Source: Planctomycetales bacterium
GTDB taxonomy: Bacteria; 4484-113
Reading direction: 5' to 3'
Assembly (NCBI GenBank): GCA_030606285.1
Contig: JAUWGS010000018.1
Coordinates: 1 to 43,519 of the forward strand
Length of the DNA: 43,519 bases
Numbering within the stretch: position 1 is the first letter of the stretch; each line of letters opens with the position of its first letter. The position numbers and the translations under genes were made by a program. This document shows, one piece after another, positions 3,341-43,519 of this stretch. The notes beneath the pieces are model-generated. The model made no database searches, was not told the DNA's origin, and worked only from the letters and a program-made list of their open reading frames with translations.

Positions 3341-4855
3341 TCAGGTGGGAGATGCGGGGGCTGAACGAGTAGCCTGTGGCCAGTAGCCAGTAGCCAGGGA
3401 AGAGCCTGTAGGGGCACGGCATGCCGTGCCCTCCGATGGGTAGCGCCCCGCCCTGGCGGGGTGGTTGCCATGCCGCAGAGATGCACCGAGAGTGTACAGG
3501 GAGCGGCGGCGTTTTTTGCGCGCCTTTGGCGCACCGCGGTTGTTAGTTGCTGGTCGCTGGTTGCTGGACGGAGGTGCATCTGTAGGGCGGGGTCTCCGCG
3601 CCCCGCCTTCCGCCAAATCCGCGGAACGTGTGCCGTCATTTTTTATTGTTTTGCGTGCACTGGCGCTATACGGGGTGTTAGGGCGCATATTGTCACAGTG
3701 GGTGTTTTGCGGTGAATTCTTGGGGGGCGGGGCGGTAGGAGGTAGTACGTCGGAAGTAGGAAGGGAAGAATCGGCGGAGCCGTCCGCTAAATCCCCACCT
3801 GGCCCACCGTCGCTAAAGCTATGGTGGGTAGACCCGCCCGTAAGCGGGGGGCTAGGGGTTAGGGGTGAGGGATTAGGGGTTGGTGAGGTGACGGGGGAAT
3901 CATCTGTAGGGCGGTCATTTATGACCGCCGGTGTTTCATCACCTGCATCGGAGGGCACGGCGTGCCGTGCCCCTACGGGGGGATCCATTTTGGGTAGGCC
4001 GGGCGCACCGTCGCCATAGCGGCTATGGTGCGTCGGCGACTCACTAGCCCGGCTCTTTATGTCCTTTTCACAACCTTCGTTTTCGGAGCGGCGCTGGTGA
4101 GCACCGCGTACTCGGTTGGGGGACGATCGCGCGGGCGATGACGCCGCATCCAGTTGTTTCTGAACCTCGGTACAGAGTTTCTGGATGCGGGCGATGAGGC
4201 GTTTATGCGGCTCGGGGATGGTTGTTTCTTCGTCGGACGCGCAAACAACGGAGAGGGCGTCGTCGAGGATGGGAGAGTAGCCAGTAGCCAGGGGCCGGTA
4301 GCCAGGGGAAGATTCTTGGTGGCAGCGGCGTCTCGCCGGTGTATTGTGACGAATCACGGGCGGCACCCTCCGTCGCTGAAGCTGTGGCGGGCAAGCGCCC
4401 GTGCCACCATCCAATGGGACGGACGCGCGACCTCCAGGTCGCGCGACCCTCCGTCGCCAAAGGCTATGGTGGGCGGGCGTTGAAGGTGTGGCGACCTGGA
4501 GGTCACCACTCCAGCTTTTAGGCTTGCCCGACTGGACGTCGGACATCATACCCGTGAGCGTCTTGGCGCAGGAGATGGCGTCCTTGGCGGAGCATTTTGC
4601 TATGGCGTCGGGCTGGGATGCGCGGGCGAGATAGAGCTGGAGCAATTCGGCCAATTGCGAATGCAGCTTGGCCGCATCAAATTCCATCTGAGGTTCTTCT
4701 GTAGGGCGCGGACCCGTGCCGCGCCGTGTATCATCTTGTGTCTCAGGACGGCGGCCCACAGGTGGCCGCCCTACAGCGGGCACAGCATGCTGTGCCCCTA
4801 CAGGGGAATCATCCCGCGTTTCTGCGACATCGGCCATATCTAAAGCGTATTTCAA
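3341..4855 (-). CDS. Repeat-inflated reading frame around a small hypothetical protein
   Basis: An uninterrupted 504-codon frame runs through the repeat field. Only two blocks look like ordinary protein: residues about 57-114 (starting MEFDAAKLHSQLAELLQLYL, with KCSAKDAISCAKTL) and residues about 196-240 (starting ILDDALSVVCASDEETTI, ending IQKLCTEVQKQLDAA). The rest is translated palindromic repeat, such as VGAQHAVP, VGARHAVP, SGDLQVATP and RPGGRASV. An extended -10 (TGCTATAAT) lies upstream of TTG 4855. ATG 4837 and ATG 4687 are alternative starts. The likely picture is a real gene of roughly 110 codons into which repeats inserted without creating stops. The true end is uncertain and it could be a pseudogene. 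I do not recognise the native protein. Confidence 0.4.
   Translation of the reverse strand: MKYALDMADVAETRDDSPVGAQHAVPAVGRPPVGRRPETQDDTRRGTGPRPTEEPQMEFDAAKLHSQLAELLQLYLARASQPDAIAKCSAKDAISCAKTLTGMMSDVQSGKPKSWSGDLQVATPSTPAHHSLWRRRVARPGGRASVPLDGGTGACPPQLQRRRVPPVIRHNTPARRRCHQESSPGYRPLATGYSPILDDALSVVCASDEETTIPEPHKRLIARIQKLCTEVQKQLDAASSPARSSPNRVRGAHQRRSENEGCEKDIKSRASESPTHHSRYGDGAPGLPKMDPPVGARHAVPSDAGDETPAVINDRPTDDSPVTSPTPNPSPLTPSPPLTGGSTHHSFSDGGPGGDLADGSADSSLPTSDVLPPTAPPPKNSPQNTHCDNMRPNTPYSASARKTIKNDGTRSADLAEGGARRPRPTDAPPSSNQRPATNNRGAPKARKKRRRSLYTLGASLRHGNHPARAGRYPSEGTACRAPTGSSLATGYWPQATRSAPASPT
3412..3431. repeat. Palindrome family A, copy 1
   Basis: GGGCACGGCATGCCGTGCCC is a perfect 20-base palindrome flanked by GTAG. 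Six copies occur in the window. Paired changes in the two arms (CACGG/CCGTG, CACAG/CTGTG, CATAG/CTATG) keep the palindrome intact. Confidence 0.85.
3586..3607 (+). repeat. Palindrome family C, copy 1
   Basis: An inverted repeat GGCGGGG-TCTCCGCG-CCCCGCC preceded by TGTAG. Related copies lie at 5775-5794 (variant), 5827-5848, 12236-12257, 13869-13890 and, truncated, near 21274. Confidence 0.7.
3803..3828 (+). repeat. CCGTCGCTAAAGCTATGG element (family F)
   Basis: A 26-base element with CCCACC/GGTGGG ends around CGTCGCTAAAGCTAT. Other copies lie at 259-284 (minus), 4366-4391, 4447-4473 and 21207-21232, with ends that vary between CCCTCC, CCCACC and CCCGCC. Confidence 0.65.
3846..3883 (+). repeat. 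Degenerate TTAGGGG-like tract
   Basis: Four irregular units of the type CTAGGGG, TTAGGGG, TGAGGG and TTAGGGG. A second copy lies on the other strand at 144-180. It is read as a Pro/Ser/Leu-rich stretch within the 3341-4855 frame. Confidence 0.55.
3910..3929 (+). repeat. Palindrome family B, copy 1
   Basis: GGCGGTCATTTATGACCGCC preceded by TGTAG. A second copy with one arm change lies at 5733-5752. Confidence 0.65.
3953..3972. repeat. Palindrome family A, copy 2
   Basis: GGGCACGGCGTGCCGTGCCC, with one central change from copy 1, followed by CTAC. Confidence 0.8.
4085..4122. repeat. Repeat family G (GCGCTGGTCAGCACCGCGTAC)
   Basis: An element GAGCGGCGCTGGTGAGCACC followed by GCGTACTCGG. Similar copies lie at 5689-5726 and 5885-5920, and a truncated one near 21413-21442. 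It is read inside the 3341-4855 frame as part of the inserted sequence. Confidence 0.55.
4417..4512 (-). repeat. Composite double-palindrome element (family E), copy 1
   Basis: On the minus strand this contains GTGGTGACCTCCAGGTCGCC (palindrome 1) and CGCGACCTGGAGGTCGCG (palindrome 2), separated by a family F copy at 4447-4473. Without the F copy it aligns closely with 36381-36446, which lies inside a coding gene. Both copies are translated in the same frame. Confidence 0.75.
4778..4797. repeat. Palindrome family A, copy 3
   Basis: GGGCACAGCATGCTGTGCCC followed by CTAC. It differs from copy 1 by a compensating pair of changes, one in each arm. Confidence 0.85.
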
Positions 4856-4876: not shown

Positions 4877-4958
4877 GTTTCTGGCAAAAAGCGGACACTG
4901 ATTCGGGGGGAATTTCTAATTAGTTCGCAGCTATCAGTTGTCAATAGGACGGGCGTAG

Positions 4959-4978
4959 GGGCACAGCATGCTGTGCCC
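4959..4978. repeat. Palindrome family A, copy 4
   Basis: GGGCACAGCATGCTGTGCCC, identical in the core to copy 3. It abuts the degenerate RAYT remnant at 4979-5280. Confidence 0.85.
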
Positions 4979-5280
4979 GTGGTGCTTGCGGCAGGATGAT
5001 GAGGCCGTGCAAGTGGTTCGGTATCACCACGAATTCATGCAGATCCACGCCCGCGAAGCGCTCCGGTATCGCCCGCTAGCATTCGTCCGCGATAGCTCCG
5101 ATGCGGGATACAACGGCTTGGCCGTTCGTCACTCGTCCTAAGGTGCACCTCTTGCCTTGGACGCAGACGGTTACGAAATAGACGCCGGCGGCGTAATCGC
5201 AGGTGCGCATCCGCACCGGCCGGCGGTCGGGCAAGCCCTCCGCAGGCGGGCAAGCCCGGAAGCGGAATGCGGCGGGACAT
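4979..5280 (-). pseudogene. Degenerate REP-associated tyrosine transposase (RAYT, Y1_Tnp)
   Basis: Read on the minus strand, one frame gives CDYAAGVYFVTVCVQGK, then TLGRVTNGQAVVSRIGAIADEC, an in-frame TAG near 5077, and LHEFVVIPNHLHGLIILPQA. This is the start of the Y1_Tnp fold of RAYT/TnpA-REP enzymes, including the HUH-type NHLHG motif. The N-terminal part is in a different frame and the C-terminal half with the catalytic tyrosine is absent, so the gene is dead. RAYTs mobilise REP palindromes in other genomes. Its position between palindrome copies at 4959 and 5346 suggests that a relative of this enzyme spread them. That link is inference. Confidence 0.75.
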
Positions 5281-11669: not shown

Positions 11670-12193
11670 AGCTGGTGGCGGTTGTCGAAGGGAATCACTA
11701 CCACGTGGAGATAGTCCCGGACGAGGAACGCGAAGGTGCATTTGTCGTAGAGCTGGACGGAGAGCGCGTTCCCGTGGAAGTTGTCGAACTGAAACCCACT
11801 TCCATCACTATGGGCATTGGCAACCGCATCGGTTTCTACGAGTTCGCCCGCACGCGGGGCAGACTCACTGAAGTCAATCTGGGCAATCAGAGCTACAGCG
11901 TCGAAGTGAAGACACCGCAGCAGGATGAGCTAGAAGGGCTGCTGGAGAAATACAGGAGTTCCGGCGCCGGGCCGACTGCGCAAAAGGTTATCACCGCCCC
12001 AATGCCGGGTAAGATCCTCGAAATGTACGTCAAAGAAGGCGAGCACGTCCATCTCGGAAACGTAGTTGCAGTGCTGGAAGCGATGAAGATGGAGAACGAG
12101 ATCACGTCAACCGTGGAGGGCACGGTCAAAGCTCTGAAGGTGAAGCAGGGCGACAATGTAGCGCGAGACCAGCCGCTAATCGAGTTCGTCTGA
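11666..12193 (+). CDS. Biotin carboxyl carrier protein
   Basis: This 175-residue protein carries biotin between the carboxylase and a carboxyltransferase. The C-terminal biotinyl domain (residues about 105-175) has the EAMKMEN site, with Lys141 biotinylated. The N-terminal 80 residues form a small beta domain like the one joining carrier and carboxylase in long propionyl-CoA carboxylase chains. A flexible linker near 85-105 is short and lacks the usual Pro/Ala run. ATGA overlap with the preceding gene shows coupling. The last 75 or so coding bases are repeated downstream at 13945-14026. Confidence 0.93.
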   Translation: MKLVAVVEGNHYHVEIVPDEEREGAFVVELDGERVPVEVVELKPTSITMGIGNRIGFYEFARTRGRLTEVNLGNQSYSVEVKTPQQDELEGLLEKYRSSGAGPTAQKVITAPMPGKILEMYVKEGEHVHLGNVVAVLEAMKMENEITSTVEGTVKALKVKQGDNVARDQPLIEFV

Positions 12194-12197
12194 GTCT
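12116..12197 (+). repeat. 82-bp direct repeat, copy 1 (end of the biotin-carrier gene)
   Basis: This stretch covers the last residues and stop codon of the biotin carrier. It matches 13945-14026 without gaps, with 4 mismatches by hand count. The two copies flank the TPR gene. Confidence 0.9.
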
Positions 12198-12317: not shown

Positions 12318-13778
12318 CTATTCTGTTTGCTCAAACCACTCGGGCCAGCCGCCAGGTGGCTCGAATCCCAGTTCCTTCGCTTTCCTAAACTTCTCATTTA
12401 CTTCATCGGGATAGCCCAGTCCAATTAGCGCCAAGCCCCAACTAAAGTAAGTCCGGGCATCATCGGGCTTGTGCTTCACGGCTTCTGCAAACTTCGCACA
12501 CGCATCCTCGTGCCTGCCCAGCTCGTCCAGCGAATTGCCCCAGTTGACGTAGGCATTAGCGTAATCGGGCTGGTGCCTCACCGCTTCCGCACACTTCTCA
12601 CACGCCTCCTGGTGCCTGCCCAGCAGCCCCAGCGCTGCACCCCAGTTATAGTACGCCTGGGCGAAATCGGGCTGGTACTTTACTGCTTCCGTATACTTCG
12701 CACACGCCTCCTCATACCGGTCCAGCAGCCGCAGCGCATTGCCCCAGTTGCAGTAGGCTTGGTGCAGATCGGGCTTGTGCTTCACCGCCTTCGCATACTT
12801 TTCACATGCCTCCTCGTGCTTACCTAGCTCGAAAAGCGCATTGCCCCAGTTGAAGTAGGCTTCGTGCAGGTCGGGCATGTGCTTCACCGCTTGCGCATAC
12901 TTCTCACACGCCTCCTCGTGCTTGCCCAGCTTCCGCAGCGCATTGCCCCAGTTGTAGTAGGCTTCGTGGTAGTCGGGCTTGTGCTTCACCGCTTCCGCAT
13001 ACTTCTCACAAGCCTCCTCGTGCCTGCCCAGCTCATCCAGCACCACGCCCCAGTTGTAGTAGGCTTCGGCGTAATCGGGCTTATGCTTCACCGCTTCCGC
13101 GTACGACTCACATGCATCATCGTACTTGCCCAGCTTCCCCAGGGCTACGCCCCAGTTGCAGTAGGCTTCGGCGTAATCGGGCTGGTGCTTCACTGCTTCT
13201 CCGAACTTCTCACAGGCCTCCCCGTAGCGGCCGAGCAAGAGAAGTCCCATGCCTTCCTCTAAATTGAACTCAGCCGTTTGAGGTGGCTGGCCCATCTTGG
13301 ATAAACTAGACGCTTCGCCCTCCTTAAAAAACTCAAACCCAAGCTCCTTTGCCTTCCTGAGCTTCTCCCCTGCCTTATCGATATGACCCAGTCTAAGGAG
13401 CGCATTGCCCCAGTCGAAGTACGCTTCGGCGTAATCGGGCTGGTGCTTCACCGCTTCCGCACACTTCTCACACGCCTCCTGGTACCTGCCTAGCATCCGG
13501 AGCGCGTTACCCCAATTAAGATAGGCGTGCGCGAACTTGGGCTGACGCTTCACCGCTTCTGCGTATTTCGCACACGCCTGCTCGTACTTGCCTAGCCATA
13601 AATCCAGCGTACAGCCCCAGACGAAGTAGGTTTGGGCAGAGTCGGGCTCGCGCTTTGCGGCTTCCGCGAATTTCCTGCAAGCCTGCTTGAAGCGACCCTG
13701 CGAGGCAAGTCTGAAGCCTTCCTCCAAACAGGACTCAGCCGTTTGAGGCGGTTTTCCCCTCCCGAATAGCTTAAACAC
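12318..13778 (-). CDS. Tetratricopeptide-repeat protein
   Basis: This 486-residue protein consists almost entirely of 34-residue TPRs of the type PDYAEAYYNWGNALxxLGKHEEACEKYAEAVKH, about eleven in number. TPRs form superhelical protein-binding scaffolds. There is no signal peptide or enzyme domain. It has two modules: each begins with PPQTAE followed by LEEG (residues about 10 and 170) and ends KAKELGFE (residues about 147 and 470), so the gene grew by internal duplication. The start is GTG 13778 with a strong GGAGGAGG site, and an extended -10 (TGTTATGAT) lies 32 bases upstream. It is transcribed against its neighbours and sits between two copies of an 82-bp repeat. Confidence 0.88.
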   Translation of the reverse strand: MFKLFGRGKPPQTAESCLEEGFRLASQGRFKQACRKFAEAAKREPDSAQTYFVWGCTLDLWLGKYEQACAKYAEAVKRQPKFAHAYLNWGNALRMLGRYQEACEKCAEAVKHQPDYAEAYFDWGNALLRLGHIDKAGEKLRKAKELGFEFFKEGEASSLSKMGQPPQTAEFNLEEGMGLLLLGRYGEACEKFGEAVKHQPDYAEAYCNWGVALGKLGKYDDACESYAEAVKHKPDYAEAYYNWGVVLDELGRHEEACEKYAEAVKHKPDYHEAYYNWGNALRKLGKHEEACEKYAQAVKHMPDLHEAYFNWGNALFELGKHEEACEKYAKAVKHKPDLHQAYCNWGNALRLLDRYEEACAKYTEAVKYQPDFAQAYYNWGAALGLLGRHQEACEKCAEAVRHQPDYANAYVNWGNSLDELGRHEDACAKFAEAVKHKPDDARTYFSWGLALIGLGYPDEVNEKFRKAKELGFEPPGGWPEWFEQTE

Positions 13779-13944: not shown

Positions 13945-14026
13945 GAGGGCACGGTCAAGGTTTTGAAGGTGAAGCAGGGCGACACTGTAGCGCGAGACCA
14001 GCCGCTAATCGAGTTCGTCTGAGTCT
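13945..14026 (+). repeat. 82-bp direct repeat, copy 2 (biotin-carrier gene fragment)
   Basis: This is a fragment of a biotin-carrier 3' end with its stop codon, without gaps relative to 12116-12197. Of its four differences, two change the protein (Ala to Val, Asn to Thr) and two are silent, so the copy looks like it was once a functional coding end. The biotin-attachment site is not included. Confidence 0.9.
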
Positions 14027-36020: not shown

Positions 36021-36091
36021 GAAGCTGCGGTATAATAGTAGTAGCCTCTGGGGGAGGCATGGCCAGTCCCTGGTTACAGGGAGGGAGTATC
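36021..36091 (+). promoter_or_regulatory. Promoter and two-hairpin leader, copy 1
   Basis: TATAAT (36031-36036) starts an RNA of about 50 bases. Hairpin 1 pairs GCCTC (36044-36048) with GAGGC (36054-36058). Hairpin 2 pairs TCCCTG (36067-36072) with CAGGGA (36077-36082) across a GTTA loop. The second 3' arm overlaps the first of two tandem ribosome sites (AGGGAGGGAG). The block aligns without gaps to 42986-43056 with 7 mismatches in 74 positions by hand count. Confidence 0.6.
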
Positions 36092-38818
36092 ATGAGGATC
36101 AGAGCATTCGTTCGGGCAATCGCGCTCACGTTAACCATTGCCATGCTTTCGCTCGTACTGAGCACGTGTGGGGGTGGCGGCAAACGCGCGGTGAATCCCC
36201 CATCCATCGGGAGCGGCGGCCAATCACAAGAACGGGTAGCGCCGCCTATCCAGGCGGTGATTGACATTTCGCTTGACGATGCGCTGGCGGAACTGGATGC
36301 ATATCCGTGCCCGGAGGGTGTGGATGCGGAGCTATTCGCGAAACTCAAGGCCGCGCTCGGGGAAGCGCTCCAAGAAACCCGGAGTGGTGAACTCCAGTTC
36401 GCCACACCTTTAGAAGTCTCGCGACCTGGAGGTCGCGAGTCCGTCCGAATTGCCTCCACTCCCCCCACCAGCGATGAAAACCGCGTCACCGACCTCGAAC
36501 TCACCGACAACGGAGACGAGACGTACACGCTTTCGTGGCACTACCGCAACCTCGGCGATTACGACCAGAGCGGCACCGTCGGCATCTCGGACATCACGCC
36601 GATTGCGATGCACTACGGCGAAGACGCAGCGCCCGAGAACGAATGGATCGACGGCGACGGCAGCGGCACCATCGGCATTAGCGACATTACGCCGCTGGCG
36701 GTGAACTTCGGGTTTGAGGTCGCCAGCTACGGTATTGAAGGCTCAAACGTGGTGGAAGAGCCTTTCACACACGTGGACTCGGTGAGCTTTAGTGAGGCGA
36801 CCGGCACCGGTTGGAAGGAGTTTGCCTGCTTGCTTGACCCGGCTGAATACGAGTACTACCAGGTGGTTCCGAACGACGGTCTCGGCGAGTCAGGGACTCC
36901 TTCTTACGCCGTGGGTATTCACGGCGGCGAAGCGCCCGTGGTCACAAGTGTCCTTCCGACCACAGGTGCCACTGAATCGGATGTTACATTCACCGCTCAA
37001 GTGTCAGGCAATCCGCCATTCACCTACGCCTGGAACTTCGGCGGCGGGGCAACACCGAATAGCTCAACCGAAGAATCCCCGACCGTGACGCTGAGTGAAC
37101 CTGGCAGCTACAGTGCCTCGGTGACCGTAAGCAGCGCTTTCGGTGATGACGTCTATCCCTTCACGCTGACGGTGACGGCTGAGGGGCCGATTATCACCGG
37201 TCTGGAAGCCACCCCTGGCACATCCGGCGTTTATCTGACGTGGGACCCAAACCTCGACCTCAGCGTGTACTTGTACCAGGTCTGCCGCGACGACCTGGAC
37301 GATGAAGCCCCGCCGATACTGCTCCAAGGAATCTTTGCCCCGCAGGTTGAGTACCTGGACGGAGAGGGTATACCCGGCAAGGAGTACCAGTACAGTGTTC
37401 GTGCCCGTGACGACTCCGGCTACGGCGCAATGAGCTTTGTCAACGCGGCGCGGGAACTCGAGGCCCCGACCGTGACCGCGACTTATGGATTCTACGAGGA
37501 GCATGTTGTGGTCCGGTGGACGGAAATCGAAGGAGCGGTGGGCTATCTCCTCTACCGTGCGCCGAGCGAGGCTGACACGCCGCAGCTTATCAACACGCTT
37601 CCTGCGGAAACCACGAGCTACGAGGATACTGAACCTGAGCTGGGCGAGACTGTATGGTACTGGACTAGGGCACAGGGCGAGGATATCCCGGGACTCCTCA
37701 GCGATCCAGAAAGGGGAAGGCGGACTGTTCAGGGGCGCGGCGACTGGTGGATGTTTGGGCGCGAGCCAACGCACAACGGGAGGAGCCCTTACGTGGGAGC
37801 ACAAACACCATCTCTCAAGTGGTGGATTTCTGGGAGCCATCCTTGGCGCTGCAATAATATGGTGATAGCCGCAGATGGAACTGTCTACGGGGCAAAAAAG
37901 GGTAGCCTCCTCGCCCTCAACACCGATGGCACGATTAAGTGGGAATACGATACGGGGGCCACCGTGTTCTCCTACGCCAGTCCCTCCAGTCCGGCCATAG
38001 GCGTAGACGGGACGGTCTATGTGGGAGCCAGCAACGAGCCAATGGACGACCACCACCTTTATGCGGTGAACCACGACGGGACTCTCAGGTGGCGCTATGA
38101 GACCGGGGACATCATGTACTCCAGTCCCGCCATCGGCGCGGAGGGGACTGTCTATGTGGGAAGCTATGACGGCTACCTCTACGCTATCACCGACAACGAA
38201 ACTGAAGGGACTCTGAAATGGCGCTATGAGACGGGAAGTGAGATGTGCTCCAGCCCCGCGATAGGCGCCGATGGGACTGTTTATGTGGGAAGTGGTGATT
38301 ATCTCTACGCCATCAATCCTGAAGGAACGCTCAAGTGGCGATACGAGACCGGGGACGACATACACTCCAGCCCGGCGATAGGCGCTGATGGAACTATCTA
38401 TGTAGGAAGCGATGATAGGTATCTCTGGGCCATCACGGACAACGTGACAATAGGGACGCTCAAGTGGAGATACGAGACCGGCAGCGGTGTGAAGTCCAGT
38501 CCCGCCATCGGCGCGGATGGAACTATCTATATCAGAAGCGATGACGGTTACCTCTGCGCTATCGCCGACAACGAAACTGAAGGGACTCTGAAGTGGCGCT
38601 ATGAGACGGGCGGCGGTGCGTCCAGCCTGGCGATAGGCGCTGAGGGGACTGTATATGTGGGAAGTGATGACAATTATCTCTACGCCATCAATCCTGAAGG
38701 AACGCTCAAGTGGCGATATGAGACGGGTAGCCATGTAAAGACCAGTCGCCCGGCGATTGGCGCCGATGGGACTGTTTATGTGGGAAGCGGCAGCTACCTT
38801 TATGCTTTTGGGGACTGA
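36092..38818 (+). CDS. Dockerin/PKD/FN3/PQQ-propeller lipoprotein
   Basis: This 908-residue surface lipoprotein has a signal peptide with the lipobox VLSTC (Cys26). Residues about 155-207 form a type I dockerin-like pair of F-hand loops (DYDQSGTVGISD and DGDGSGTIGISD). These are followed by a PKD-like domain (about 285-355), two FN3-like domains (about 365-455 and 460-540), and a PQQ-type beta-propeller (about 550-905) of at least seven blades reading SSPAIGADGTVYVGS and EGTLKWRYETG. Residues about 98-118 are encoded by a composite palindromic repeat and are absent from the paralog at 43057. ATG 36092 follows two tandem ribosome sites. ATG 36059 lies in the leader hairpins and is rejected. 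Confidence 0.85.
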   Translation: MRIRAFVRAIALTLTIAMLSLVLSTCGGGGKRAVNPPSIGSGGQSQERVAPPIQAVIDISLDDALAELDAYPCPEGVDAELFAKLKAALGEALQETRSGELQFATPLEVSRPGGRESVRIASTPPTSDENRVTDLELTDNGDETYTLSWHYRNLGDYDQSGTVGISDITPIAMHYGEDAAPENEWIDGDGSGTIGISDITPLAVNFGFEVASYGIEGSNVVEEPFTHVDSVSFSEATGTGWKEFACLLDPAEYEYYQVVPNDGLGESGTPSYAVGIHGGEAPVVTSVLPTTGATESDVTFTAQVSGNPPFTYAWNFGGGATPNSSTEESPTVTLSEPGSYSASVTVSSAFGDDVYPFTLTVTAEGPIITGLEATPGTSGVYLTWDPNLDLSVYLYQVCRDDLDDEAPPILLQGIFAPQVEYLDGEGIPGKEYQYSVRARDDSGYGAMSFVNAARELEAPTVTATYGFYEEHVVVRWTEIEGAVGYLLYRAPSEADTPQLINTLPAETTSYEDTEPELGETVWYWTRAQGEDIPGLLSDPERGRRTVQGRGDWWMFGREPTHNGRSPYVGAQTPSLKWWISGSHPWRCNNMVIAADGTVYGAKKGSLLALNTDGTIKWEYDTGATVFSYASPSSPAIGVDGTVYVGASNEPMDDHHLYAVNHDGTLRWRYETGDIMYSSPAIGAEGTVYVGSYDGYLYAITDNETEGTLKWRYETGSEMCSSPAIGADGTVYVGSGDYLYAINPEGTLKWRYETGDDIHSSPAIGADGTIYVGSDDRYLWAITDNVTIGTLKWRYETGSGVKSSPAIGADGTIYIRSDDGYLCAIADNETEGTLKWRYETGGGASSLAIGAEGTVYVGSDDNYLYAINPEGTLKWRYETGSHVKTSRPAIGADGTVYVGSGSYLYAFGD
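36381..36446 (+). repeat. Composite double-palindrome element (family E), copy 2, inside a gene
   Basis: It contains GTGGTGAACTCCAGTTCGCC and CTCGCGACCTGGAGGTCGCG in tandem. It matches the minus strand of 4417-4512 apart from the family F insertion there. It is translated as SGELQFATP...VSRPGGRESV, in the same frame as SGDLQVATP...VARPGGRASV at the other site. Confidence 0.8.
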
Positions 38819-43056: not shown

Positions 43057-43519
43057 ATGAGAACCAACGCATTCATTCAGGGTATTATGCTCACGTTAAC
43101 CATCTTCGCGTTCGTGCTCGTGTTGAGCACTTGCGGGAGCGAGTGCAAACGCGCGGTGCAATCCCCAACCATCGGAAGTGGCGGCCAGCCACAACCTGGG
43201 GTAGAGCCGCCTATCCAGACGGTGGAGTCCATCGACGAGGCGCTCGCCGAACTCGACGCGCTGGAAACCCCCGACGGCGTTGAACCGGAGCTTTTCAAGC
43301 GGCTCAAAGACGAGCTGGCAAAGCAACTCAACGCAAAAGGTGTTAGCAAAATCGCGTCTGCGCCGCCCACAGGTGAGTCCAACAAGGTCGCAGATCTAGC
43401 CTTCGGTGATGACGGCGAGGGCAATCTGGTGCTTACCTGGCACTACTGGAACCTCGGCGACTACGACCAGAACGGAGTAGTCGGCATCTCAGACATCACG
43501 CCGATTGCGATGCACTACG
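43057..43519 (+). CDS. Dockerin lipoprotein, paralog of the 36092 gene (partial)
   Basis: The first 154 residues are visible before the window ends. Signal peptide and lipobox (VLSTC) match the 36092 protein, as do KRAV, IGSGGQ, the DEALAELDAL segment and the first dockerin loop (DYDQNGVVGISDITPIAMHY). It lacks the 20-residue repeat-encoded insert. Domains after the dockerin are unknown. Confidence 0.88.
   Translation, partial: MRTNAFIQGIMLTLTIFAFVLVLSTCGSECKRAVQSPTIGSGGQPQPGVEPPIQTVESIDEALAELDALETPDGVEPELFKRLKDELAKQLNAKGVSKIASAPPTGESNKVADLAFGDDGEGNLVLTWHYWNLGDYDQNGVVGISDITPIAMHY

Follow-up and report, generated by a model that had tools for sequence, protein, structure and literature searches.

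Mobile palindromes of a REP-doublet-like (REPIN-like) type have probably been tolerated in the disordered linkers of two protein families and multiplied together with the genes that carry them. The probability of this reading is put at about 0.8. One such palindrome, here called E1, is read in two unrelated genes of the window, i.e. the whole stretch of 43,519 nucleotides that was analysed: a lipoprotein gene and a gene designated gene B. E1 is one of at least 11 types of insert and is no dedicated coding repeat.

The E1 palindrome and the RAYT genes

The core of E1, CGACCTGGAGGTCGC, has six matches in the window at two mismatches or fewer, vs 0.14 expected. In a search of the 2.3-Mb genome, about 29 copies of the full-length element (64 nt) were found with E-values down to 3e-22, and the backwards-read control pattern gave zero matches. 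The consensus is roughly CCGGAGTGGTGACCTCCAGGTCGCCACACC-TTnAATC-GCGCGRCCTGGAGRYCGCGCGTCCGG. It folds into two hairpins with a short closing stem, CCGGA/TCCGG (z -6.1 vs shuffles). The pairing is retained across 16 copies, in which 92.9% of the pairs are kept, whereas slid controls are only 25-43% paired. Eight pairs have changed on both sides, and such paired changes are present in both hairpins. The layout of E1 is that of a REP doublet, comprising the two inverted palindromes, the spacer and the predicted hairpins of a REPIN. The element ends in CCGGAG../..TCCGG, and neither a GTAG tag nor a correctly placed CGTC tag was found on it; CGTC is found solely behind the right hairpin, and part of it belongs to the closing stem. 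Five E1 matches were found in the sister species, and none in the eight other genomes of the class that were searched.

The genome contains three RAYT genes, which match the NF047646 / Y1_Tnp profile with scores of 91.8 and 88.2 bits for two of them and 76.2 for the third (cut-off 80). One of the copies weakly matches the solved TnpArep 4er8. The connection between such genes and the inserts can be followed in another insert, g, which is common to three lipoproteins (one on contig C30, two on C17). The RAYT gene of contig C29 is immediately preceded by one palindrome and ends in another; the left half of insert g is 93% identical to the first (over 29 nt) and its right half 97% identical to the second (over 32 nt). 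Judged from these matches, insert g is the joined end palindromes of the C29 RAYT, the make-up expected of a REPIN-like derivative. For E1 itself, none of the three RAYT genes is flanked by the element on both sides, a partial E1 being present downstream of the C30 RAYT only; neither a target-site rule nor an exact empty site was found for E1 alone.

A broken RAYT remnant lies in the window at 4953-5225 on the minus strand, directly upstream of gene B, with 82% amino acid identity over 92 residues to the C30 copy and one internal stop. The RAYT genes carry translated repeats of their own. Both the remnant and the C30 gene (locus L154, 1105-1707) contain the in-frame palindrome PRAQHAVPLR, and the C29 gene (L153, 1291-1926, minus strand) ends in a translated repeat, with TPGLETDSPR near the C-terminus.

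Linkers of the lipoprotein family

The lipoprotein ORF of the window spans 36059-38818 on the plus strand, with a likely ATG start at 36092 and a positive codon score. It encodes, in this order, a signal peptide with lipobox, linker 1, a helix, linker 2 with E1, Ig-like/EF-hand-like SDITP repeats, a PKD domain and a beta-propeller, the last two recognised by profile matches (PKD and PQQ_2/ACSF4 propeller). E1 occupies 36379-36443 on the plus strand of linker 2 and is read in frame as RSGELQFATPLEVSRPGGRESV; the open frame across it runs ..ETRSGELQFATPLEVSRPGGRESVR.., and an example peptide predicted from translated E1 is SGELQFATPLEVSR. A paralog at 43057-43519 (plus strand), which runs off the contig end, serves as the uninserted comparison: it has the native short linker AKQLNAKGVSKIA and reads ..LAKQLNAKGVSKIASAPP.. 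where the gene at 36059-38818 has E1. Because the paralog has this short linker instead, E1 in the lipoprotein is an insertion. The sequence-only reading had described the palindrome at 36381-36446 in just this way, as an in-frame insertion encoded in the lipoprotein and absent from the paralog at 43057, and this description was borne out.

The same coding E1 insert is found in lipoproteins on three contigs (C15, C8 and C29), so it is not a one-site assembly artefact, which had been named as a condition that would overturn the earlier interpretation. In all three it sits at the same site and carries a variant, GAACTCCAGTTC, that is present in no other copy. Since they form one lineage with an otherwise unseen variant, the three coding copies are most simply explained by a single insertion event followed by duplication. 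In the sister species (G001), the corresponding syntenic region lacks exactly the segment 35982-38824 (plus strand), which contains the whole lipoprotein gene. The flanks of this segment, which align at 79% and 82% identity, adjoin each other exactly in that genome, so that the gene is absent in its entirety at that locus. On this sequence comparison, synteny supports a locus-specific gain or loss of the whole lipoprotein gene.

The family is large, with 76 tblastn matches in the 2.3-Mb genome. Linker 2 extends from the helix (..ELKDAL) to STPPTGExNRV and measures 9-15 residues when native. By reading through the paralog list, a repeat-derived insert was counted at linker 2 in about 25 of 39 paralogs, and the inserts are of at least 11 kinds. 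Inserts at the same lipoprotein linker are also present in the sister genomes. When the lipoprotein genes were matched to repeat-bearing loci outside the family, the repeat-derived share came to 32% in linker 1 and 43% in linker 2, vs 0.2% in the signal peptide and 0.1% in the folded Ig/EF-hand-like region. The helix has a share of 11%, likely a boundary error, and the rest of the lipoprotein 8%, which appears to reflect shared coding repeats of the propeller-like domains. The host site counts more than which element is inserted: the inserts concentrate in the linkers and the folded domain is free of them. For the N-terminal part of the lipoprotein only a poor structural model was obtained (mean pLDDT 52.5). 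The predicted values of the insert region, residues 97-133, are below 50, which is weakly consistent with disorder.

Linker 1, from the lipobox to the helix (e.g. loci L084, L091 and L095), is a second repeat-rich linker. It often contains VVQGFSPGSS..KTSPEGLDY, which derives from the GTAGTCCAGG palindrome family that is also used in gene B. The lipoproteins share SDITPIAMHYG repeats, and an expansion of the family is seen in eight further genomes of the class too. Elsewhere in the window, an 82-nt direct repeat (12116-12197 and 13945-14026, 95% identical) encodes the end of an apparent biotin/lipoyl carrier domain; its two copies flank ORF 12318-13778, which itself has 102-nt tandem repeats.

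Gene B, a second family with repeat-built linkers

Gene B (3341-4837, minus strand) lies in the ORF 3341-4855, with an ATG at 4837, and consists of conserved modules between in-frame linkers built from repeats. Its E1 copy (4512-4417, minus strand) reads SGDLQVATP..VARPGGRASV in the frame of this ORF. The left half at 4471-4512 reads WSGDLQVATPSTPAH and the right half at 4420-4446 reads VARPGGRASV (both minus strand). A nested repeat of another family, at about 4447-4470, splits the copy.

It could be argued that such ORFs are spurious or artefacts of assembly, the repeats being intergenic and their frames open by chance in GC-rich DNA. Taken as a whole, 3341-4855 has a negative codon score, which first suggested a spurious ORF, and GC-rich palindromes are often stop-free. 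However, the modules on both sides of the repeats are conserved proteins under purifying selection. Module M2 (MEFDAAKLHSQLAELLQLYLARAS..SGKPK; 4517-4687, minus strand) has a pN/pS of 0.18, with 45/45 pairs, and module M3 (ILDDALSVVCASDEETTIPEPHKRLIARIQKLCTEVQKQLD..; 4142-4282, minus strand) one of 0.29, with 21/21 pairs. Both modules were located in eight copies; in seven of these a single open frame runs through M2 and M3, and in the eighth they are out of frame. Together with the occurrence of the lipoprotein insert on three contigs, this makes the artefact explanation highly improbable in general. For 3341-4855, a spurious ORF was rejected because of the conserved, selected modules: gene B is a real gene, and M2 and M3 are under purifying selection between copies. 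The earlier claim that a second palindrome copy (4417-4512) is read in the same phase in this frame thereby gained a real gene to stand on.

The modules of gene B are found at 14 or more dispersed loci, such as L068-L081, and the make-up of the linkers between them differs greatly among copies. In the window the gene B copy has 504 residues, of which about one third was judged by eye to be conserved module, the remainder being mostly repeat-encoded. A phage origin or a known family was considered for gene B, but Pfam and PHROGs yielded no match with E-values up to 1. Among the ten genomes searched, the gene was found only in the two of its genus. Gene B can be described as a genus-restricted orphan family, in which conserved modules alternate with linkers from many repeat families. 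Several contigs end in or near gene B copies.

The resemblance between the two families bears on the question of whether the inserts are favoured. Under adaptive diversification, the repeats would be selected for varying the reach or the surface properties of exposed lipoproteins, and the linker would be a selected site of cassette exchange, not merely a tolerant one. In favour of this are the variety of inserts at the one linker, seen in about 25 of 39 paralogs and also in the sister species, and the expansion of the family to 76 matches in a 2.3-Mb genome. The same pattern is, however, displayed by gene B, for which no surface role is predicted, and neutral tolerance accounts for the same distribution. 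Selection for diversity is thus considered unlikely as an explanation. The same doubt applies to a more speculative proposal, in which the linkers of both families act as a landing pad that accepts and exchanges mobile palindromes and the cell uses the new linker peptides to diversify its surface lipoproteins.

Reading frames, origin and known systems

Ten of the 29 E1 copies lie in the two gene families. Six are in gene B, five of them at one linker (C15, C17, C26, C28 and C30) and one at a later linker (C13). The four in lipoproteins are on C15, C8, C29 and C26; a further, diverged copy was seen in a lipoprotein on C23. Across the remaining 19 no convincing gene frame was found, so E1 is, like the REPINs, predominantly extragenic. 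Long ORFs cross some other copies (a set on C34, C19, C12 and C26). One of these is the 5' flank of a metallo-beta-lactamase-like gene, and the others gave no sign of real genes by reading or by codon score.

Gene B reads the left half of E1 as SGDLQVATP, and two lipoprotein lineages read it in the equivalent frame as SGELQFATP or SGGLQATTP. In the lipoprotein copy C26:120922, it is read in another frame, as EWGPPGHHT. At each of the five coding sites the right half is read in one and the same frame and orientation, as (A/S)RPG(D/G)R(A/E)S or what remains of it. As at most three to five of the events are independent, this agreement is a hint and not proof; it could hint at a mild frame preference of E1. 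Translation of E1 itself is deduced from the open frames and from the selection on the neighbouring modules.

These frames are the main argument for a dedicated coding repeat, i.e. an E1 adapted by evolution to insertion and reading in a single preferred frame, along the conceptual lines proposed for the Rickettsia palindromic elements. The shared left-half frame in gene B and two lipoprotein lineages and the uniform right half both speak for it. Against it stand the 19 copies outside recognised genes and the deviating frame of C26:120922. Moreover, E1 has no excess of open frames (a mean of 3.31 of 6 per copy vs 3.57 in shuffles), and the other repeat families of these linkers are translated in various frames: the same-strand phases between lipoproteins and gene B are 117/109/27, as raw counts of repeat matches that are not independent. 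Given its open frames and these varied phases, E1 shows no general adaptation to coding, and a dedicated coding repeat is regarded as improbable. The sequence-only reading, which proposed a coding repeat in the same frame at two unrelated sites, is thus upheld in part. The element is translated in two unrelated real genes in the same frame; a dedicated preferred frame did not stand, as 19 of 29 copies are without a gene frame, one left half is framed elsewhere and the best three copies are one event. Nor did an absence of stops lend support, E1 being no more stop-free than its shuffles.

The tolerated-palindrome reading would proceed as follows. E1 is probably a small, non-autonomous mobile palindrome of the REP-doublet type, with about 29 copies. 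RAYT-type single-strand DNA enzymes may have copied or moved such palindromes, and most insertions into genes would have been lost. An insertion into a disordered linker may have survived whenever it was free of stops and preserved the frame. Much of the spread within the family probably occurred by gene duplication, as suggested by the three paralogs with the same E1 insert and by the absence of the gene at the locus of the sister species. The encoded peptide is most likely a by-product that is tolerated as a spacer, and not a sequence under selection.

Several known systems share parts of this pattern. The Rickettsia palindromic elements (Ogata et al. 2000, as cited in PMC2635572 and PMC6649704) are described in these citing papers as in-frame palindromes in genes that still look functional. 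The comparison with them, already drawn in the earlier reading, is apt in concept, as E1 palindromes likewise lie in frame inside protein genes. It is an analogy only, the host here being an uncultured bacterium related to 4484_113 and UBP7 MAGs. In contrast to the Rickettsia elements, the present inserts concentrate in the linkers of two multi-copy families, and many repeat families share one site without a single coding frame.

The GTAG-/CGTC-tagged REPs (Di Nocera et al. 2013, PMC3733652) are RAYT-linked and occur as singles and dimers inside ORFs. The dimers encode 20-30 residues (clusters 43-82), and different REPs were reported at about the same recB site in two Xanthomonas. RAYT-linked repeats inside ORFs and different repeats at one site are thus common to both systems. 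However, E1 is without a tag, lacking the unpaired tetranucleotide 5' at the hairpin foot, and the inserts described here affect a large share of two paralogous families, with at least 11 kinds at one linker.

REPINs (Bertels and Rainey 2011, PMC3116915) are doublets of inverted palindromes with a clover fold, derived from the ends of RAYT elements. E1 shares the doublet clover fold, and a doublet from RAYT ends is seen for insert g. Those described are extragenic, whereas the present repeats are translated inside genes. The enterobacterial RU repeats (Delihas 2007, PMC2759123) are also small mobile repeats with ORFs that occur inside annotated genes. They are, however, MITE-like units of 103-168 bp in scattered single genes, with no hotspot in a paralogous family described. 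In a limited literature search, no account was found of two paralogous families in which many palindrome families make up the linkers at fixed sites.

The pattern resembles both the Rickettsia palindromic elements and the REP-decorated proteins, on an unusual scale. It amounts to a dense natural experiment in which selfish, non-coding repeats become protein. Within a single genome, the same linker holds different palindromes in dozens of paralogs; other paralogs have no insert, and the enzymes that probably mobilised the repeats are still there. Questions that have been posed since the Rickettsia elements were described can now be tested: in which frames and at which sites insertion is accepted, and whether the cell ever makes use of the new peptides.
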